Assembly (NCBI GenBank): GCA_946624575.1
Contig: CAMOSH010000006.1
Location: 1 to 50,855, forward strand
Source: an uncultured Verrucomicrobiota bacterium
GTDB lineage: Bacteria > Verrucomicrobiota > Kiritimatiellia > RFP12 > UBA3636
DNA length: 50,855 bases
Direction of reading: 5' to 3'
Made by a program: the position numbers and the translations under genes. Position 1 is the first letter of the stretch. Each line of letters begins with the position of its first letter. This document shows positions 39,652 to 49,902 of the stretch, one piece after another. The notes beneath the pieces were generated by a model. It had not been told where the DNA came from. It saw only the letters and a list, made by a program, of their open reading frames with translations, and searched no databases.

Positions 39652-41280
39652 CTACGCTTCCGGGACCGCGCGCCGCCCGTCGTCGCCTTCCGGGGCGACG
39701 CCGAGCGCGACGGACTGGCTGACCAGCGTCTTGCGGCCGTAGCACGCGAACGCGGATTCGACGAGCGCGGCCGGAGGACGCCGGGTGAAGAGCGAAACCG
39801 CAGGCACGATCACAAGCCCGGCCAGCATTGCGATGGAGCCGGAATGAATCGGATTGAGAACGCCAAGCCCGAGCACCACCGGCTTCCACCAGAACACGTT
39901 GGCGACGGTAAGCGACACCGCAAAAACGAAACACGCCCAGCAGGAGGCCGCAGTCACGCGCCGGGAATAGAGCGAGTACAGGAACGGAGCCAGGAACGAC
40001 CCGGCCATGGCGCCCCAGGACACGCCCATCATCTGCGCGATGAACGCGATGGGGCTGGAACTGTTGTACTGCACAAGCGCCATCGCCGCGCTTATCGCGA
40101 TGAACACGACGAGCAGTATCCGTATCCAGAGCACCTTGGCTCGGGCCGACAGCCCGCGCCGGACCACGGTCCCGTCAATGAAGTCGAGCGTGAGCGTGGA
40201 ACTGGACGTCATGACAAGGGACGAGAGCGTGGACATCGACGCCGAAAGCACAAGCACCACGACGAGCGCCATCAGCAGGCCGTCCGGGGAAATTGCCGAT
40301 TCCAGCATCTTCGGCACGACGGAATCGAATCCGCCCGCAGGGGCACCATTGGGGGCGACGCCGATTTCGGCGGAGAAAAGCCGCCCGAATCCGCCAAGGA
40401 AGTAGCAGCCGCCCGCGATGACGAAGGCGAAGAGCGTGGAGATGAGCGTTCCCTTCTTGATCGCGCCCTCGTCCTTGATCGCGTAGAACTTCTGCACCAT
40501 CTGCGGAAGTCCCCAGGTGCCAAGCGACGTGAGAACGACGACGGCCAGAAGATTCAGGGGATCAGGACCGAGGAACGACGTGAACACGCCCGGCGTCGGG
40601 CCGGCGCCCGGAACCAGCTCAGGGCCGGGCACGCGCGCAAGTCCGTCCATCGCAGCCACAAGCCCACCCTTGCGCGCCAGGACGGCCACTATGACTGACG
40701 AAATGCCGAAGAGCATCACGAGACCCTGTATGAAGTCGTTGATCGCCGTGGCCAGGTAGCCACCGGCTATCACGTAGACCGCCGTGAGGACCGCCATCAC
40801 GACGATGCACCACGAATACGAAAATCCGGGAAACGCCATGGAGAAAAGCCGCGACAGCCCGTTGTAGAGCGACGCCGTGTACGGGATCAGGAACACGAAC
40901 ACGATCGCCGACGAGGCCAATTTGAGCGACGGACTGCCGAATCGCTTTGCGAAGAAATCGGGCATCGTGGCGGAATCCAGATGCTGCGTCATGATCCTCG
41001 TGCGGCGCCCAAGCACGGCCCACGCCAAAAGCGACCCGATGATCGCGTTGCCGATGCCGGCCCAGGTCGCGCTCACGCCGTAGCGCCAGCCGAACTGCCC
41101 GGCGTATCCCACGAACACGACGGCGGAAAAATAGCTGGTCCCATACGCGAACGCGGTGAGCCACGGCCCGACGGAACGCCCGCCAAGCACGAAACCGTCC
41201 ACGCTCGCCGCCTTGCGACGACACCAGAAACCTATTGCCAGCAGAAGTGCGAAGTATGCTGCCAGAAGTGTGATTTTCAT
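39652..41280 (-). CDS. Sodium:solute symporter (SSS), probable sugar/solute uptake
   Basis: The 542-residue protein has about 13 hydrophobic helices and the SSS pattern: DGFVLGGRSVGPWLTAFAYGTSYFSAVVFVGYAG at the first sodium site region, AVYVIAGGYLATAINDFIQGLVM (the family signature in helix 5/6), and SASMSTLSSLVMTSSSTLTLDF near Na2. This is close to PutP/SGLT-like bacterial symporters. It is divergent from the polysaccharide locus, so uptake of released sugars is an attractive but unproven role. A -10-like TATGAT lies on the minus strand at 41379-41374. The start at 41280 is the only Met in front of the first helix. Confidence 0.9.
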   Translation of the reverse strand: MKITLLAAYFALLLAIGFWCRRKAASVDGFVLGGRSVGPWLTAFAYGTSYFSAVVFVGYAGQFGWRYGVSATWAGIGNAIIGSLLAWAVLGRRTRIMTQHLDSATMPDFFAKRFGSPSLKLASSAIVFVFLIPYTASLYNGLSRLFSMAFPGFSYSWCIVVMAVLTAVYVIAGGYLATAINDFIQGLVMLFGISSVIVAVLARKGGLVAAMDGLARVPGPELVPGAGPTPGVFTSFLGPDPLNLLAVVVLTSLGTWGLPQMVQKFYAIKDEGAIKKGTLISTLFAFVIAGGCYFLGGFGRLFSAEIGVAPNGAPAGGFDSVVPKMLESAISPDGLLMALVVVLVLSASMSTLSSLVMTSSSTLTLDFIDGTVVRRGLSARAKVLWIRILLVVFIAISAAMALVQYNSSSPIAFIAQMMGVSWGAMAGSFLAPFLYSLYSRRVTAASCWACFVFAVSLTVANVFWWKPVVLGLGVLNPIHSGSIAMLAGLVIVPAVSLFTRRPPAALVESAFACYGRKTLVSQSVALGVAPEGDDGRRAVPEA

Positions 41281-41454
41281 TGCGTTTGCGAAGTTGCGCC
41301 TTGCGAGATAGCGCGGACGGCCGCTGCGGAAGGCATCGCCTTCAACGTCGGGGCGCGGCGCGCATCGCGCGCAATCATACGCCAATCGACACTAAAAAAA
41401 AAGCCGTTTCCGCATGCCCGGAAACTCCGGACTCTTGCGTGTCAAAAAAACAAC

Positions 41455-41567: not shown

Positions 41568-44519
41568 ATGCACCAAGTGAAACGTGCGGCGTTCTTCGCC
41601 GCCGCGGCCTTTGCCGCAATGAATTGCGCCAACGCGCTTTCGGGCTATGTCTATTACGTCGCCGATGGCGGCAGCGACGAGAACGACGGCCTCTCCGCCA
41701 AAACCCCGTTCGCGACGATCGACAAGGCGATAACGGTAGCCGAAAATTCCGACGATGAAATTCGCGTCGCGGCCGGAACCTACTCGACGACGAACCAGTG
41801 GGGTCCAAACCTCAAGGCGAAGCTCGTCGGCACAGGGGAAACGCGCGACGACGTCATCATCCAGTCGGCCGGCACCTACCGGACGCTCCGCATGGCGGCG
41901 GGGTCGATGGTCACAAACCTCACCGTCGTCGGCATCACCGTCCACACGTCCAACGCGGACAAAGGCGGCGCGATCGAGATGGCGGGCGGAACCCTAACGG
42001 ACTGCGTAATCCGCGACGGGCATTCCGATTACAAGAGCGCCCGTTCCGGCGGAAACATCTTCATGACCGCAGGGCTTGTCGAGAACTGCGTGATCAGCAA
42101 CGGCAACGCCAAAAGCCGCGGCGGCAACATCAACATGGAGGGCGGCACGGTCCGCAACTGCGTCATCGCCGACGGACAGGCCACGGCTTGGGGCGGCAAC
42201 GTGTACATCAAGGGTTCGTCGGCCGTCGTGACGAACTGCGTCATAAAAGATGGCGTCAACAATACGACCGCCGCCAACGCATACGGTGGCAACGTCCACA
42301 TCGAAAACGCCGGAACCGTTGCGGACAGCGAGATTTCCGGCGGAGTCTCCTATAGTGACGGAGGGAATGTTTACATAACCGGCGCGGGAATCCTGAAGGG
42401 CTGCATGATCACGGGCGGCACAAGCCGCAACGGCCATGGCGGCAACGTTCGGATCACCGGCGACGCGGCCGTCGTTTCTGATTGCACGATTTCGGATGGA
42501 ACGTGCGAAAACACGGCGAACAACATCTTCGGCGCAAACCTCTATGTGAACTCCGCAGCTACCCTTTCACGGTGCCGATTTTCCGGCGGCACCATCGGCA
42601 CATACAACGGCGGCAGCCTCTGCGTAAACAATTCCAGCGCCGTGGTGGAGGACTGCCTCATCGAGGGATCCCAAAGCGGCGGCGTACTGCTTTACACGAC
42701 AAGCCATCTTTACAACTGCACGATTGTTGGCAACAGCGCATACGGCGTCTGGGCGTGGAACGACAACCAGCACCTTTTCAATACCGTCATCTACGGGAAC
42801 ACCGAAAATGGCTCGGCAAAGGACTGGACCGGCAACCAGCCGACGCACGCATCGGCGGAATTTCTGAACTGCGCGGTCACGTCCGGCTCGCTTTCGACTT
42901 CGACTTTCCCGACGCTTGTGGAAATCGACTCCTCCGCCTTTGCCGACTACGCGAACGGCGACTACTCGCCGGCGTCCGGCGGCGCGCTCGTCGATGGCGG
43001 TACGTCCGATCCGCGCGGCGCTAGCGCCTCGGCGACCGACCTCGCCGGCAACCCGCGCGCGAGCGGCGCCATCGACATCGGCTGCTACGAGTACCAGAAG
43101 CAGGACATGACCGTCCGCATCGACGGCGCGACCTACAGCCAGGTCTTCGCCCCGGCGACGGTGACGTTCACCCATGCCGTGGAGAATTCCGCCGATCCGG
43201 ACACCATCGTCTTCACCTACGACTTCGGCGACGGCTCGGCCACCGAGACCACCTCGGAGGCTACGATTTCCCACCCCTACGCCGAACCCGGCGTTTACAC
43301 GGTGACGATTTCGGCCGAGAGCGAATGCGGGGACGATGTCCCGGCCAACATGGTTTACGAAGGCTACGTCCGCGTCGCGTCGTCCACCATTTACGTGACG
43401 CCTGGAAATGGTTCGGGGACGTTCCCATACGACACGGCGGAAAAGGGATACGGCAACCTCAAGACGGCTGTCCAGAATGCGCTCGACGGCTACACGATCC
43501 TGCTCGGCGAGGGCGTCCACGAAACGACCGACCAGGTGTCGTTCAGCAAGGCGCTCACGCTGCGCGGTCTTGGCGCGACGCCCGAGGCGGTGATCGTGCG
43601 CAACACGACGGCGACGCCCGACACCTACTACCACAGGGTACTGGAGATGAACAACGCCGACGGCCGCATCGAAAACCTCACGATCGAAAACGGCTGCGTC
43701 TCTTCGTGGTCTGGCAATGACCAGTACGGCGGCAATCTGCGGCTTGTGGCGGGCGTTGTCTCCAACTGCGTGATCCGCGGCGGTCGCGCGGTCGTCAGCG
43801 GCGGGAACGGCGCCGGAGCGGGCGTCGCGATCGCGGGCACGGCGACGCTCACGCACTGCGTGATCTCCAACAACGTTGTCGAGGGGACGTCCGCGAACAA
43901 CGGCTATGCCGGCGGCGCGGTGTTTCTGTGGTACAGCGTCCAGAACGCCCGCATCTCGAACTGCCTCGTTTCCGGCAACCGCTACGTGACGAGCGGCGAA
44001 ACCGTGAAATCCGGAGCGGCGGGCATTCGCTTCGGCGGGAGCAACAATAACACCGCCGTCGAGAACTGCACGGTCGTCGCCAACACGGTCGAGGGAGAAC
44101 TCTCCGACGATTCCGCCGGCATCCACTGCACGACGTGGTACGGGCGCCTGCGCAACAACATCGTGGTCGGCAACTACGAGACGGGCAAGGAGAAATTCAC
44201 CTCCGTCAAGCTCGACTTTAATTCGGGCAACGACTACACCTACCACAACAACATCACGGACGACTCCGTCATCGAAACCTCCGGCACCAAGAGCAAGGAC
44301 AACAAGCTCGCGTCCGCCGCGTCGCTCTTCAAGAACTTCGCAAATGGCGACTTCAGGCTGAAGACCGGCAGCGCCGCCTACAACGCCGGAACGCGCTCTG
44401 GACTCGCGCTCCTGCCGGCCGTGGACCTCGACGGCAACCCGCGCGTGGCGTTCAACAAGATCGACATCGGCTGCTCCGAGAGCCAGGACCTTCCCGCGAC
44501 AGTGTTCATCCTCCGGTAA
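41568..44519 (+). CDS. Secreted right-handed beta-helix protein with PKD domain
   Basis: The 983-residue protein has a signal peptide (cleavage after CANA), a DUF1565-like start (YYVADGGSDENDGLSAKTPF), and a first beta-helix to about residue 510. A PKD domain follows at about 513-600 (YDFGDGSATETT, then PGVYTVTISAES), then a second beta-helix to the C-terminus. Within the first helix a unit beginning (R/W/D/H)GGN(V/I) and ending C-I-x-x-G recurs about eight times (42046-42650). No catalytic pattern of a pectate lyase could be fixed, and no sorting tag was recognized. AAAGG precedes the ATG by 9 nt. Its TAA overlaps the next ATG (TAATG). Polysaccharide binding or lyase action at the surface is a reasonable guess. 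Confidence 0.8.
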   Translation: MHQVKRAAFFAAAAFAAMNCANALSGYVYYVADGGSDENDGLSAKTPFATIDKAITVAENSDDEIRVAAGTYSTTNQWGPNLKAKLVGTGETRDDVIIQSAGTYRTLRMAAGSMVTNLTVVGITVHTSNADKGGAIEMAGGTLTDCVIRDGHSDYKSARSGGNIFMTAGLVENCVISNGNAKSRGGNINMEGGTVRNCVIADGQATAWGGNVYIKGSSAVVTNCVIKDGVNNTTAANAYGGNVHIENAGTVADSEISGGVSYSDGGNVYITGAGILKGCMITGGTSRNGHGGNVRITGDAAVVSDCTISDGTCENTANNIFGANLYVNSAATLSRCRFSGGTIGTYNGGSLCVNNSSAVVEDCLIEGSQSGGVLLYTTSHLYNCTIVGNSAYGVWAWNDNQHLFNTVIYGNTENGSAKDWTGNQPTHASAEFLNCAVTSGSLSTSTFPTLVEIDSSAFADYANGDYSPASGGALVDGGTSDPRGASASATDLAGNPRASGAIDIGCYEYQKQDMTVRIDGATYSQVFAPATVTFTHAVENSADPDTIVFTYDFGDGSATETTSEATISHPYAEPGVYTVTISAESECGDDVPANMVYEGYVRVASSTIYVTPGNGSGTFPYDTAEKGYGNLKTAVQNALDGYTILLGEGVHETTDQVSFSKALTLRGLGATPEAVIVRNTTATPDTYYHRVLEMNNADGRIENLTIENGCVSSWSGNDQYGGNLRLVAGVVSNCVIRGGRAVVSGGNGAGAGVAIAGTATLTHCVISNNVVEGTSANNGYAGGAVFLWYSVQNARISNCLVSGNRYVTSGETVKSGAAGIRFGGSNNNTAVENCTVVANTVEGELSDDSAGIHCTTWYGRLRNNIVVGNYETGKEKFTSVKLDFNSGNDYTYHNNITDDSVIETSGTKSKDNKLASAASLFKNFANGDFRLKTGSAAYNAGTRSGLALLPAVDLDGNPRVAFNKIDIGCSESQDLPATVFILR
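42046..42650 (+). repeat. Beta-helix repeat block in the secreted protein
   Basis: About eight imperfect units of 24-32 codons each begin with GGN(V/I) or a variant and end with a C-(V/M/T)-I-x-x-G segment. They correspond to rungs of a right-handed beta-helix. The DNA is diverged, so the repeats are old and kept at protein level. Confidence 0.6.
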
Positions 44520-46399
44520 TGACCGCCTCGCCACTGGCTTACGCCTCGGAGGGGGGCGGCGAACTCCCGTTCGCCGCGAAGCCCAGCGGCGGTCTGGAGA
44601 CCGCCTCCCCACTGGCCGTTGCGGCGATTCTCCTCGCCGCGGCGCTGTTGCCGCAGGCGGCTTTCGGAACCGGCGCGGACGATGCACTTTCGCTCGCGAA
44701 AGGCAGGGCGGAGGCGGTCTACGGAGGGCGGCTGACGTTCGAATCCGGCGGTTCGGTCGTTCTGCGCAGTTCGAACGCCGAATACCATTCCGGGATGCGC
44801 CTGCTGCCGCCGCCGGGAAAGGCGACGTTCGACCTTTCGTCCGGTCGTTACCTCGCCGCCGACCTGGAGAATCTCTCCGACCACCAGCAGCGGCTTTGCC
44901 TCAAGATCGACGACGCCGCCCGCGACGCCTACGCCTCCATCACGCTCGACCCCGGCGAAAAGGGAACGGTCAAGCTCCAGCTTCCGCACAGATCGGTTTA
45001 CTCGTTTCCGACCGGTGCGACAGGCGTGAGAACGCTCGACACCGCCGCAATCACGAACGTGGCGTTTTGCGTCGTGTGGCCATACGAGGGACAGTTTTCC
45101 GGGCTCCTGAACTTCAGGATTTCCAATGTCCGCCTCGTCGGTTCTCCGGATTGGGCGCGCAGCGTCGCCCCGGCGGCATACCTGCCTTTCGTCGACAAGT
45201 TCGGCCAGTTCGCGCATGGAGACTGGAAGGGGAAGGTTTCGTCGGCCGACGAACTCCGGGCGGACCTCGCAGCCGAGAACGCCTCGCTCAAACCGCCGCC
45301 GGCGAGCTGGGACGGATACGGGGGCTGGAGAAACGGACCGCAGCTCGCCGCCACCGGGAACTTCCGCACAGAGAAGGTGGACGGCAAGTGGTGGCTCGTG
45401 ACGCCATCCGGTCACCTGTTCTACTCGCTCGGAATCAACGTCGTGAAAGTCGATAGCGACGCGCCGGACGGACGGCTCCACCCCGACTGGTATGAAAGCC
45501 CGGCGCAGGCGTCGATGGCGTTTCCGACATGGAACATGCGCGAAAAGTTCGGCAAGTCCGATTTCCGCATGGACTGCTACGACCTCGTGCTGCGGCGGCT
45601 CGACTCGTGGGGAATCAACACGATCGGGAACTGGAGCGACGGACTTCTCACGTCGCTTTCGCGCAAGCCATACGCCATCGTCGCCGCGTCCAGGCCCGCC
45701 GACGTGCCGTATCTCCCCGGAGGATTCTACGACACGCTCGACGAGACGTTCGCAGAAAAAATGAGCCAGGCCGTGGCCGCCGCGTTCGCGGCGCCGGGCT
45801 CCGCGCTCGAAACCGCGGCCGGCGACCCGATGTGCATCGGGTTCTTCATCGACAACGAACTTTCGTTTCCCTCCGACGCCGCCTACTTCGAGCCGTATTT
45901 CAAGGCCTGCAAGGAGGCTCTCGCCGCCGCAGCCCCGGGCAAGCTGTATCTTGGATGCCGCTTCAAGGGACTGCGAAATCCGGATGCGCTCTGGAACGCC
46001 GCCGCGAAGTGGTGCGACGTGATCTCGGTCAATTCATACGTCGGGAGCGTCGAAGTATTCGGTCGCGGGGAATACGCCGCGCCGGCGATCGACAAACCGA
46101 TCCTGCACAGCGAGTTCCACTTCGGCACGATGCAGCGCGGGATGTTTTCGGCCGGACTCTGCCCGGTCGGCGACCAGTGCGAACGCGGACGCGCGTTCCG
46201 GCGAGTCGTGGAAGGCGCGCTGCGGCACCCGCTGTTCGTCGGATCGCACTGGTTCCAATACCGCGACCAGCCCCTCGTGGGGCGCGGCGACGGTGAAAAC
46301 TACCAGATCGGATTCGTGGACGTCTGCGACAGGCCTTACGTGAAACTCGCCGAGGCCGCACGCGCCGTTGGCGAGACGATGTACGAATTGCGATTTTGA
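44519..46399 (+). CDS. GH50/agarase-like glycoside hydrolase 1
   Basis: The 626-residue protein has a signal-like hydrophobic segment at 31-50, an N-terminal jelly-roll-like domain (about 60-210), and a TIM barrel that starts FVDKFGQFAHGDWKGKV. It continues FRTEKVDGKWWLVTPSGHLF and DSWGINTIGNWSD, sequences typical of beta-agarase/GH50-type enzymes. Predicted acid/base is Glu447 (FFIDNELSF) and predicted nucleophile Glu532 (HSEFHFG). It should cleave a galactan or a related polysaccharide outside the cytoplasm. The start overlaps the beta-helix stop as TAATG; an unusual 30-residue leader precedes the hydrophobic segment. The two following genes are paralogues. Family number and substrate are inferred from motif memory, not a search. 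Confidence 0.72.
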   Translation: MTASPLAYASEGGGELPFAAKPSGGLETASPLAVAAILLAAALLPQAAFGTGADDALSLAKGRAEAVYGGRLTFESGGSVVLRSSNAEYHSGMRLLPPPGKATFDLSSGRYLAADLENLSDHQQRLCLKIDDAARDAYASITLDPGEKGTVKLQLPHRSVYSFPTGATGVRTLDTAAITNVAFCVVWPYEGQFSGLLNFRISNVRLVGSPDWARSVAPAAYLPFVDKFGQFAHGDWKGKVSSADELRADLAAENASLKPPPASWDGYGGWRNGPQLAATGNFRTEKVDGKWWLVTPSGHLFYSLGINVVKVDSDAPDGRLHPDWYESPAQASMAFPTWNMREKFGKSDFRMDCYDLVLRRLDSWGINTIGNWSDGLLTSLSRKPYAIVAASRPADVPYLPGGFYDTLDETFAEKMSQAVAAAFAAPGSALETAAGDPMCIGFFIDNELSFPSDAAYFEPYFKACKEALAAAAPGKLYLGCRFKGLRNPDALWNAAAKWCDVISVNSYVGSVEVFGRGEYAAPAIDKPILHSEFHFGTMQRGMFSAGLCPVGDQCERGRAFRRVVEGALRHPLFVGSHWFQYRDQPLVGRGDGENYQIGFVDVCDRPYVKLAEAARAVGETMYELRF

Positions 46400-46408
46400 A
46401 AACTTGAC

Positions 46409-47887
46409 ATGGTTACGCAAAGATATTCCCTTCTCTCCCCGGCGGTTCCATTCGACGCCTTACGACGACCGTTCATCGACCGCTTCGGCCAGTTCGCGCA
46501 TTCCGAGTGGCCGGAAAAGGTCCACAACGAGCGCGAGCTTCCGGACGACCTCGCCAGGGAACTCGCGACGATGCGCGCGGCTCCGTCGAACTGGAACGAA
46601 TGGGGCGGCGCGAAGGACGGCCCGGCGCTTGAGGCGTCGGGCGCGTTCCGCACCGAGAAAATCGACGGCCGCTGGTGGCTCGTCGATCCGTCCGGCCATC
46701 CGTTCTTTTCCCACGGCCTCGACACGCTTCGCCACTACACCGACGCCGCGAACGGCCGCGAGCATCCGGACTGGTATGAAACGGAGCCGCCCAAAAACGG
46801 GCGCATGACATTCACGCACTGGAACCTGCAGCGCAAGTTCGGGAAGATCGACTACATTTCCGACTACTACCGTTTCATCCACGCGCGCCTCGCATCGTGG
46901 GGAATGAACACGATCGGGCGCTGGGGTGCATGGCGGCTCCCATCGTGCGGGCGCACTCCATACATCCTTCTGCTGGACTCTCCCGCAAAGGCCCCGCGTC
47001 TGCCTGGCACGCGGATCTACGACGTGTTCCACCCAGACTTCGGGGAGAAATTCAAAGCCGGAGTGCTGGACCAGGCCCGGACGGAAAAGGCGATCGCCGC
47101 CGCCGTGGACGATCCGCTCTGCATCGGACTTTCGCTGGACAACGAATTTTCGTTCGACGCGATGATCGGAGTCATGATGGCGCAGGACATCCGGAATTCG
47201 GCCGCGAAGAACGCCTTTTTCGCCCATGTCCAGCGCAAATACGGTTCGCTCGCGGCGATCAACTCGGCGTGGGGCACCAACCTTTCAACCTGGCCCTCGC
47301 TGGCGACGCTTTCGGTGCCGCTTCCGGGAGCGGGCTTCGCGGCCGACGCCGAGGAGTTCCGCCTCGACTGGCTGGAGCGCTACTTCGGAGCGGCGCGCGC
47401 CGCCGTGAAGGCTCTTGCGCCGGACCGCCTCTACTTCTCCGCCGCGTTCGCCGGCATGGAGCAGCCAGCCGCCGCGTGGGACGCCGCCGCGCGGTTCGCC
47501 GACGTGCTCGTCGCGGATGTCCACGAACGCGACGCCGCCGCGTTGAGCCCGCTCGGCTCGGCGTCAATGCCGGACAAGCCTCTGCTTGTCGGGGCGTTCA
47601 CGTTCGGATGCCTCGACCGGGGAATGTTCGCGGCCGGCCCCTGCCCCACCCCGGACCAGACCGCGCGCGCCGCCGCATACGGTAATTTCATGCGCGGGGC
47701 GCTCGAAAACCCGCGCATCGTCGGATGCCACTACTTCCAGTATCGAGACCAGCCGCTTGTCGGGCGCGACGACGGCGAGGCGTTCCAGATCGGCTTCGTC
47801 GACGTCTGCGACAGGCCATACGGGAAACTCTCCGCCACGGCCAGAAAGTTCGGCGAAACAATGTATGGACGATTCAACAGCAAATGA
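46409..47887 (+). CDS. GH50/agarase-like paralogue 2, lacking the nucleophile (probable pseudoenzyme)
   Basis: The 492-residue protein has the same barrel (FIDRFGQFAHSEWPEKVHN, RTEKIDGRWWLVDPSGH, SWGMNTIGRWG) but no N-terminal jelly-roll domain and no signal peptide. Predicted acid/base Glu246 is kept (SLDNEFSF). The nucleophile position is Ala396 (VGAFTFG; paralogues have S/G-EFHFG), coded GCG at 47594-47596, with the adjacent His replaced by Thr. The frame is intact, without stops. An insertion of about 45 residues (about 262-310) resembles GH42-type barrels. It lies 9 bp after gene 1 and overlaps gene 3. It may be a cytoplasmic binding protein, may use another residue, or may act on a different linkage. 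Confidence 0.75.
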   Translation: MVTQRYSLLSPAVPFDALRRPFIDRFGQFAHSEWPEKVHNERELPDDLARELATMRAAPSNWNEWGGAKDGPALEASGAFRTEKIDGRWWLVDPSGHPFFSHGLDTLRHYTDAANGREHPDWYETEPPKNGRMTFTHWNLQRKFGKIDYISDYYRFIHARLASWGMNTIGRWGAWRLPSCGRTPYILLLDSPAKAPRLPGTRIYDVFHPDFGEKFKAGVLDQARTEKAIAAAVDDPLCIGLSLDNEFSFDAMIGVMMAQDIRNSAAKNAFFAHVQRKYGSLAAINSAWGTNLSTWPSLATLSVPLPGAGFAADAEEFRLDWLERYFGAARAAVKALAPDRLYFSAAFAGMEQPAAAWDAAARFADVLVADVHERDAAALSPLGSASMPDKPLLVGAFTFGCLDRGMFAAGPCPTPDQTARAAAYGNFMRGALENPRIVGCHYFQYRDQPLVGRDDGEAFQIGFVDVCDRPYGKLSATARKFGETMYGRFNSK

Positions 47888-49902
47888 AAGCACTCTTCTT
47901 CGTAATCGCATTCATCGCCGCCGCGATCTTCGCGGTGCATCGCCTCGCCCCGCGCCAGATGGAGGCCCATGAAAGCCAAACTGTTCTGGAGGAACCGGAG
48001 GCACCAGAAGGACCGGGCGTATCGGAAGGTTCGGAAGGACCGGATGGATCGGAAGAACCGGGTGGAACGGGTGGATCGGACAAAGCGGAAAGTGCGGAAA
48101 GTTTTTCCTTCGCGACGTGCCGCCTTTCGCCAGTCCACGGGGCCACGGTCCTGCCCGACGGCGAAGGCGCCGTCGTTCTGCGCATGCCAAGCGCTGAGTG
48201 GAGCTGCGGCCTGAGGCTCGATCCACCGGAAGGCCGCCGATCGCTCGACCTTTCACGCGGGCGCTTTCTCGCACTTGACGTCGAAAACCTCTCGACGACG
48301 CGCCAGATGCGCCTCACGATGCACGTCTCAAGCGGCGGCGCCAACAGCGAGGCGGCCGATCACGCCGTCGCGAACTTCACGAAAAACCGCTCCGTCAACA
48401 CCGGCATCGGCCTCAACCCCGGCGAAAAGGGAACAATGCGCCTCTTCCTGCCGCACCCGTCTTATGCGACGCCCGACGGCGCTCCCGGACCGCACCTCGT
48501 TGACACAGCGCACGTGAACTGCATCGAGCTTCAGTGCCAGTGGCCGTTCGAGCGCGAATTCAAATGGGTGGTCGATTGCCGCCTATCGAACCTCCGGCTC
48601 GAAGGCGAGCCGCTTCCGCCGCCTCCGCAAGGCGCGGCGTTTTTCCCGTTCATCGACCGCTACGGCCAGTATCGCCACGCCGAATGGCCAGAAAAAGTGC
48701 ATTCCGACGAAGAGCTGCGCGAGGACCTGCGCAGCGAAGAGGCCCGGATCGCGGCCTCGCCGCGCCCGGCGTCGTGGGACCGATACGGCGGCTGGGCAGC
48801 GGGTCCCAGGCTCGCGGCCACGGGTTCCTTCCGCACGGAAAAGGTCGATGGCAAGTGGTGGCTCGTGACGCCAGAAGGGCACCTCTTCTTCTCCACCGGC
48901 ATCGACGTCGTGCGCGACAACACGGACTCCTCCGACGGCACCAAGCACCCGGACTGGCACGAAACGCCCGTTCCGCCGTCGCGCATGATGGCCTACCCGG
49001 CGTGGAACATCGCCAGGAAGTTCGGCAAGGACGACTACCGCGCGGACTACAACCTTTTCGCGCAGAGGCGGCTGTGTTCGTGGGGCGTGAACACGATCGG
49101 CAACTGGTCAGGCGGCGACCTCCTGCGGACGGCGCGCATCCCCTACGTCGCGAGCGTCCTGGAGCGCGGACGCGGCGTCCCGCGCCACCCGAAATTCCAC
49201 ATCTACGACTTCGCGGCGCCAGATTTCGAGGAAAAGATGCGCGCGGCCATCCGCGAAAAGTTCGCGACCGACGAAACGTTGCGCCACGCCGCCGGCGACC
49301 CGCTGTGCATCGGATTCTTCATCGACAACGAGCTGCAATTCCAGAAGTGGATTCCGGAAGTCGGCGCCGAAAAGGCCGCGCCCCTGCTCGACCTCTACTT
49401 CCGGCTCTGCAAGGAGGAGCTTGGGCGCGCGGCGCCGGGCAAGCTATACCTCGGCTCGCGCTTCGTCGGCTTCCGGCAGGCCGGAATCCTCTGGCGCGCC
49501 GCCGCAAGGCATTGCGACGTCGTGAGCGTGAACGCCTACGCCAACAGCGTCGCCAACATTCCCGACAACCTTTTCGAGCCGGGCCTTGAAAAGCCGATCC
49601 TGCTGGGGGAATTTCATTTCGGCTGCATGGACCGGGGAATGTTCCGGGCGAGCCTCTGCCCCGTGGGCGACCAGACGGAGCGCGGCCGCTCCTACGCGCG
49701 CCTCGTGGAAGGCGCGCTTCGGCACCCGCTCTTCGTCGGTTGCCATTACTTCCAGTATCGCGACCAGCCGCTCATAGGGAGAGGCGACGGCGAAGCGTAT
49801 CAGTGCGGCTTCGTCGATGGCTGCGACCGGCCCTACGCCCCGCTTTGCGCCGCCGCGCGCCAGATCGGCGAAACGATGTATCCCATGCGCTCCGGACGCT
49901 GA
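47884..49902 (+). CDS. GH50/agarase-like glycoside hydrolase 3, membrane-anchored
   Basis: The 672-residue protein begins with a single hydrophobic anchor or signal (MKALFFVIAFIAAAIFAVHR), then a Glu/Gly/Ser/Pro tripeptide-repeat linker at about 35-72, a jelly-roll-like domain (about 75-240), and the barrel from FIDRYGQYRHAEWPEKVHS. Predicted catalytic residues are Glu483 (FFIDNELQF) and Glu576 (LGEFHFG), both present. No Cys lipobox is seen. It should be tethered at the envelope and act with paralogue 1. The ATG overlaps the stop of paralogue 2 as ATGA, fixing the start; the open frame upstream is a shadow. The linker is coded by a 9-bp tandem repeat. Confidence 0.74.
   Translation: MKALFFVIAFIAAAIFAVHRLAPRQMEAHESQTVLEEPEAPEGPGVSEGSEGPDGSEEPGGTGGSDKAESAESFSFATCRLSPVHGATVLPDGEGAVVLRMPSAEWSCGLRLDPPEGRRSLDLSRGRFLALDVENLSTTRQMRLTMHVSSGGANSEAADHAVANFTKNRSVNTGIGLNPGEKGTMRLFLPHPSYATPDGAPGPHLVDTAHVNCIELQCQWPFEREFKWVVDCRLSNLRLEGEPLPPPPQGAAFFPFIDRYGQYRHAEWPEKVHSDEELREDLRSEEARIAASPRPASWDRYGGWAAGPRLAATGSFRTEKVDGKWWLVTPEGHLFFSTGIDVVRDNTDSSDGTKHPDWHETPVPPSRMMAYPAWNIARKFGKDDYRADYNLFAQRRLCSWGVNTIGNWSGGDLLRTARIPYVASVLERGRGVPRHPKFHIYDFAAPDFEEKMRAAIREKFATDETLRHAAGDPLCIGFFIDNELQFQKWIPEVGAEKAAPLLDLYFRLCKEELGRAAPGKLYLGSRFVGFRQAGILWRAAARHCDVVSVNAYANSVANIPDNLFEPGLEKPILLGEFHFGCMDRGMFRASLCPVGDQTERGRSYARLVEGALRHPLFVGCHYFQYRDQPLIGRGDGEAYQCGFVDGCDRPYAPLCAAARQIGETMYPMRSGR
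47988..48101 (+). repeat. Coding 9-bp tandem repeat (minisatellite)
   Basis: About 12.7 degenerate copies of a 9-bp unit with consensus GGAAGGACC run without gaps. In the reading frame each unit adds a tripeptide of the type E-(G/E/A)-(P/S). Copy-number changes would keep the frame and alter only linker length. Confidence 0.8.

Follow-up and report, generated by a model that had tools for sequence, protein, structure and literature searches.

Does a glycoside hydrolase gene that has lost its catalytic nucleophile, and that lies between two intact relatives, represent a dying copy or a protein with a function of its own? The question is raised by three consecutive GH50-like genes in the window, by which we mean the whole 50,855-nucleotide stretch analyzed here, from an uncultured Verrucomicrobiota bacterium; their coordinates are collected in Table 1. 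The initial annotation had described the middle gene as an intact, coupled copy carrying alanine in place of the nucleophile, with the acid/base glutamate retained and both the signal peptide and the N-terminal domain lost, and each of these points was borne out. The 46409-47887 reading frame is uninterrupted, the alanine codon is correct to the base, and the two flanking paralogues have their glutamates in the EFHFG motif exactly as claimed. Even when the frame was extended upstream as far as the preceding stop codon, no reading gave a hydrophobic N-terminal segment (maximum KD13 0.95; paralogues 1 and 3, 2.96-3.07), and the alignment shows that the N-terminal domain is absent. The gene begins 10 bp past the stop codon of paralogue 1, and the overlap of its own stop codon with the start codon of paralogue 3 suggests that these two are translationally coupled.

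Table 1. Features of the GH50 cassette, in window coordinates.
Feature	Position	Strand	Remarks
Large secreted protein	41568..44519	+	Two predicted right-handed beta-helices, PKD linker, C-terminal choice-of-anchor Q
Paralogue 1, secreted GH50	44519..46399	+	E447/E532 intact, EFHFG
Nucleophile-less GH50 homologue	46409..47887	+	492 aa; without signal peptide and N-terminal domain
Arg171 codon	46919..46921	+	Strand 2 end; Asn in 16/16 active GH50s, Arg in 10/10 clade members
Glu246 codon	47144..47146	+	Acid/base kept (Aga50D Glu534); DNE motif; invariant in clade, 10/10
Ala346 codon	47444..47446	+	Strand 5; replaces the Arg of every active GH50
Asp370 codon	47516..47518	+	Strand 6; 8/10 clade members have Asp, every active GH50 Asn
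His372 codon	47522..47524	+	Strand 6 end; Tyr in all active GH50s; in clade His 9/10, Arg 1/10
Ala396 codon, GCG	47594..47596	+	Nucleophile position (Aga50D Glu695); motif GAFTFG
Thr398 codon	47600..47602	+	Strand 7; Thr/Ser/Asn in clade, replacing the His of every active GH50
AATGA, TGA stop overlapping ATG of paralogue 3	47883..47887	+	Same overlap in G001, G006, G023
Paralogue 3, membrane-anchored GH50	47884..49902	+	E483/E576 intact, EFHFG

None of the three GH50s matched an NCBIfam model or reached the Pfam cut-off. In a phmmer comparison with solved structures, the product of the middle gene (hereafter the Ala protein) matched GH50 agarases with E-values of 8.6e-62 to 2.5e-57 (AgWH50C, 8.6e-62; Aga50D, 4.9e-59). 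Structure prediction with AlphaFold2 gave a confident (beta/alpha)8 barrel of the GH50 fold (pLDDT 90.7, pTM 0.91), for which the best 15 Foldseek matches were GH50 agarases (TM 0.79-0.86 by query), followed by BpGH50 and then by GH42 and GH2 enzymes. By sequence and fold, the Ala protein belongs to the GH50 lineage. We aligned it with Aga50D, using the active-site residues given in PMC11079163, and found that E246 corresponds to E534, A396 to E695, N245 to N533, R453 to R752, E457 to E757, and F443 to F742. Since A396 occupies the position of E695 and E246 that of E534, the glutamate that was lost is the nucleophile and no other. This glutamate is kept in all solved-structure GH50s of the alignment, including the divergent BpGH50, and a substitute carboxylate, which had been envisaged along with the original observation, was sought within the nucleophile motif, where none is conserved in all members. 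Compared with the exo-beta-agarases Aga50D (4BQ2-4BQ5), AgWH50C (5Z6P), and PfGH50B (6XJ9), which share its family and fold, the Ala protein keeps the equivalents of the acid/base Glu, Asn533, Arg752, Glu757, and Phe742, but it lacks Glu695, the N-terminal domain, and the export signal, and the equivalents of N460, R646, N670, Y672, and H697 are replaced.

Thus, the sequence similarity, the fold, and the strand 4 acid/base of a retaining GH50 are present, and the strand 7 nucleophile is absent. An export signal and an N-terminal CBM-like domain are usual in agarases; here the signal is absent from all ten orthologues described below, and the domain occurs only in the deepest of them, G011. Because the residue that defines the mechanism is missing, the protein should be annotated neither as an agarase nor as a retaining hydrolase of GH50. 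Annotation by similarity would name it an agarase or galactosidase, an activity that is impossible by the standard mechanism. The initial prediction of inactivity is therefore correct for that retaining mechanism and does not extend beyond it.

We searched relatives and genome contigs and found orthologues of the Ala gene in nine other genomes, all Kiritimatiellae from two families of one order, with some of the contigs coming from stomach samples of roe deer, sheep, and yak. Position 396 is Ala, or Thr in one case, in 10/10 orthologues (nine distinct; 50-99% identical), while Glu and His occupy the nucleophile motif in all 53 other unique GH50 sequences that have the motif. As the substitution is common to all orthologues, it cannot be a chance or private mutation. 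In a 53-row tree the ten form a single clade with support of 100/99, and the nucleophile would most simply have been lost once. A profile search of 346 genomes of the class placed nine clade members at E <= 1e-265 and ordinary GH50s at E >= 1e-191, a gap that indicates that the clade is limited to a few genera; the G012 copy, which is shorter and whose profile match is split, is also counted in the clade.

The combination of N-terminal truncation and catalytic residue loss is common in decay, and would fit a degenerating duplicate. However, the frame is open in ten genomes across the 50-99% identity range, and relaxed selection, which had been named as the sign of a decaying gene, was not observed: dN/dS between the Ala gene and its orthologues in five closer genomes was 0.10-0.21 (same pairs: paralogue 1, 0.08-0.15; paralogue 3, 0.06-0.21), and two more distant pairs gave 0.32. 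These are pairwise NG86 values only; the closest pair is separated by just 4 non-synonymous and 12 synonymous changes, and dS is high (0.8-1.5) in the others. The Ala gene is under purifying selection, like its active paralogues, and 133 positions are invariant across the clade. A stop inside the G003 gene, considered as a sign of a broken copy, sits at the natural C-terminus and was dismissed. As the sequences come from independent assemblies and several studies, an assembly error fares no better than decay, and we reject both as having a negligible probability. The gene is neither dying nor the product of a chance mutation; it encodes an ancient, conserved nucleophile-less glycosidase that stands beside active sisters.

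Deep and shallow clade members record the order of the changes. G011 still has the N-terminal domain and no clear signal, and thus the signal and the nucleophile were gone before the domain; the losses of nucleophile and signal peptide came first, and N370D and the loss of the domain are later changes. A GH42-like stretch (KYGSLAAINSAWGTNLSTW, residues 251-321) follows strand 4 of the Ala protein and is present in nearly all clade members and most GH50s; paralogues 1 and 3 have lost it by deletion, as has, independently, the clade member of G012 (L048:1132-2706). In the latter protein DNE has also become GSE before the acid/base, with E246, R171, and A396 kept, and it may be drifting further.

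The lack of a hydrophobic N-terminal segment extends to the whole clade (10/10; best 13-residue mean 0.25-1.25 with a usable start), the readable active paralogues having such a segment with a 13-residue mean of 2.15-3.5, and the clade proteins are therefore likely to be cytosolic. The genomic context was also informative. The description of the locus as a triplet is accurate for the three genes in the window, but the constant unit is a pair: a membrane-anchored active GH50 of the paralogue 3 type lies within about 100 bp downstream of the Ala gene in all ten genomes, with overlapping stop and start codons in four of them, and only six of the genomes have paralogue 1. The genes overlap or are closely spaced, and in every case an active GH50 immediately follows the Ala gene. 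This could point to a partner subunit, in which a dead copy would join the operon's active GH50s in a complex and adjust their activity allosterically, and Aga50D is a homotetramer (PMC11079163). However, no clade member has a signal peptide, and the active partners have either a signal or a membrane anchor. With the Ala copy in the cytosol and the active copies exported, the two would reside in different compartments, and we therefore regard such a subunit as improbable. Of the roles first suggested for the gene, binding or regulation on the one hand and altered chemistry on the other, the partner-type role is thus disfavored, while binding and new chemistry still stand and the composition of the pocket leans toward a new specific function.

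In six inspected loci the cassette opens with a homologue of the large protein encoded at 41568-44519 (47-72% identity in five relatives). In G011, G014, and G012 a PA14 protein or its relative lies upstream instead of the beta-helix protein, and the upstream gene of G023 falls outside the comparison because the contig ends. The PA14-domain protein that opens the cassette in G014 and G011 (L090:14415-18221 and L091:15116-18751, respectively) has about 1200 aa, and the partial upstream protein of G012 is a relative at 36% identity. Reading the substrate from the beta-helix neighbor was considered and dropped, as its model was weak (pLDDT 69.6, pTM 0.52) and matched only generic beta-helix structures. 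Outside the cassette, no conserved genes were found in the inspected loci.

Next to the nucleophile position, the active site has been extensively altered. Using 16 aligned active GH50s as a reference, we defined 82 invariant columns, of which 58 are kept in all ten clade members; the retention of E246 is therefore unremarkable by itself. Ten active-invariant sites are replaced in every member (N171R, F242S/C/A, L343F, G344S/A/P, R346A/P, C364A, Y372H/R, E396A/T, H398T/S/N, and L411P/Y), so that the change is larger than the initial annotation had claimed, with nine family-invariant residues replaced in addition to the nucleophile. According to the strands of the model, the replaced sites are nearly all at or beside barrel strands 2, 4, 5, 6, and 7, and strands 1 and 8 have no change among invariant sites. 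At seven of the ten changed sites the residue is common to at least 8 of the 9 non-redundant members, compared with a background of 130/386 positions (34%; p-value 0.036, Fisher test). A pocket freed from constraint would vary, whereas in this clade the new state is maintained. The residues E246, R453, E457, F443, W172, and H441 are kept in 10/10. The basic residues R171, H372, and H109 (the last at a strand end, new, and present in all ten members) were gained, and R346 and H398 were lost. The fixed new residues lean toward a new specific function, although by themselves they do not decide between catalysis and binding.

We propose, with a probability of about one in three, that the Ala protein is a cytosolic, neofunctionalized GH50 relative that acts as an inverting glycoside phosphorylase on an imported oligosaccharide. 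A GH50 gene would have been duplicated in the ancestor of these Kiritimatiellae; one copy would have lost its signal peptide, the nucleophile Glu and, later, the N-terminal domain, and its pocket would have been rebuilt in concert (N171R, R346A, N370D, Y372H, E396A/T, H398T, and others) and then frozen. Oligosaccharides released by the exported paralogues would be imported and met by the Ala protein in the cytosol; an imported oligosaccharide is the simplest candidate substrate, since the protein appears to be a cytosolic homologue of exported glycan degraders that is under selection. In such a reaction E246 would be the proton donor, R453, E457, and F443 would be retained as sugar-binding residues, and the anomeric carbon would be attacked in a single displacement by a nucleophile from outside the protein, most likely inorganic phosphate, which Arg171 and His372 would position close to where the Glu had been. 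An enzyme with a proton donor and without a nucleophile may work by single displacement with phosphate, with water and another base, or by substrate assistance. The clade has the phosphorylase-type combination of one catalytic acid and no nucleophile carboxylate, its predicted cytosolic location also suits this mode, and we favor phosphate because of precedents in GH112 and GH130.

In GH112, a phosphate site takes the place of the nucleophile and the acid is kept within a GH42-like barrel, the phosphate site and the catalytic acid lying near the positions of the GH42 nucleophile and acid/base, and a kinship to retaining beta-galactosidases has been suggested (PMC8106489). As far as compared, GH112 and the Ala protein are not sequence relatives, and phosphorolysis by the latter is a prediction. 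In GH130, basic residues define the phosphorylases and glutamates the secreted hydrolases, with location tied to intracellular phosphate, so that a basic/acidic swap in the nucleophile pocket and a cytosolic versus secreted location split the two chemistries (PMC4599007). GH130 is a different family from that of the Ala protein, and its hydrolases are the exceptions, having gained carboxylates. A conserved strand 2 Arg assists the nucleophile in GH2, which is related through clan GH-A (PMC12243196), and by this analogy Arg171, which stands out among the gained residues, should reach the vacated nucleophile site. If the proposal is true, the cassette would present a second, more recent conversion of the GH42-to-GH112 type with the active sister gene still adjoining. 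That a phosphorylase arose from GH50 in this way, by loss of nucleophile and export signal and gain of a phosphate site, and is the first in the GH50 lineage, is a tentative and rather doubtful claim.

Several observations weigh against phosphorolysis. With two pocket basic residues lost and three gained, a net basic pocket is unsupported, and D370 adds a negative charge in 8/10 members. Just ahead of the acid/base, 2/10 members have Ser in place of N245 and one has Gly in place of D244. GH112 was not among the best 50 fold matches listed for the Ala-protein model, and no conserved sugar-1-phosphate, phosphate/galactose pathway, or transporter gene was found in or beside the cassette. A search for GH112 in the bacterium's own genome gave no match, but the control genomes likewise gave none, so that this result carries no weight either way.

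Alternatively, the protein may be a cytosolic, non-catalytic binder that holds an imported oligosaccharide in what is preserved of its cleft, serving as a sensor, a buffer, or a regulator of the locus, which we consider almost as likely as a phosphorylase. Klotho (GH1) and the GH18 chitinase-like lectins, eukaryotic and mostly extracellular, have lost the catalytic Glu and have a fold and cleft under selection. Here the nucleophile and its likely neighbors were lost together, the fold is conserved under purifying selection despite the loss of an essential catalytic residue, the retained R453, E457, F443, W172, and H441 are consistent with sugar binding, and the fixed pocket residues would be equally in keeping with a specific ligand and with a new reaction. 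On the other hand, E246 is retained just as strictly as these residues, the protein has no DNA-binding or signalling domain, the cassette is without a conserved regulator, and the active paralogues that might be regulated by contact sit across the membrane. We found no example of a cytosolic bacterial GH50 pseudoenzyme in a literature search, nor, among open-licence papers only, any report of a nucleophile-less GH50. Should it be non-catalytic, the Ala protein would provide bacteria with a well-defined instance in which a glycosidase has become a sugar-binding protein inside the cell; as an active enzyme, it would show a route from retaining hydrolase to phosphorylase and would represent a new enzyme activity in rumen bacteria.

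The acid E246 could also cooperate with a different base, making the protein a cytosolic hydrolase (or lyase/transferase) that inverts by way of Asp370 or of a water held by Thr398, or that uses substrate assistance on an N-acetyl or charged sugar. In 8/10 members N370D introduces a carboxylate where strand 6 ends, making Asp370 a possible alternative carboxylate, and H398 has become T/S/N. However, residue 370 is Asn in the two deepest members, which already lack the nucleophile, so that D370 cannot be the founding change, and none of the new carboxylates of the clade is invariant within it. We therefore consider this chemistry unlikely, and we retain phosphorolysis as the preferred reading.

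As for the substrate range of the family, GH50 enzymes are not agarases alone: VadG925 is a GH50 beta-galactosidase from Victivallis vadensis, and GH50_2 and GH50_3 comprise beta-1,3-glucanases (PMC11079163). These are relevant here because the host belongs to a gut or rumen lineage; they are described as conventional GH50s and are set beside the Ala protein by that description only. A sodium:solute symporter gene (39652-41385, minus strand) adjoins the cassette, and among the other inspected loci only that of G011 likewise has a flanking SSF gene. A FAD-dependent oxidoreductase (PF12831) directly follows the cassette in G032 and G003 (L087:8631-10556 and L092:12165-13925; 52% identity), in opposite orientations relative to it. 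In the 3.9-Mb genome to which the window belongs (G000), we detected 25 matches to the Ala protein (on contigs C42, C56, C66, C138, C176, and others), and the genome encodes several more GH50 paralogues together with many distant GH42/GH50-like proteins.
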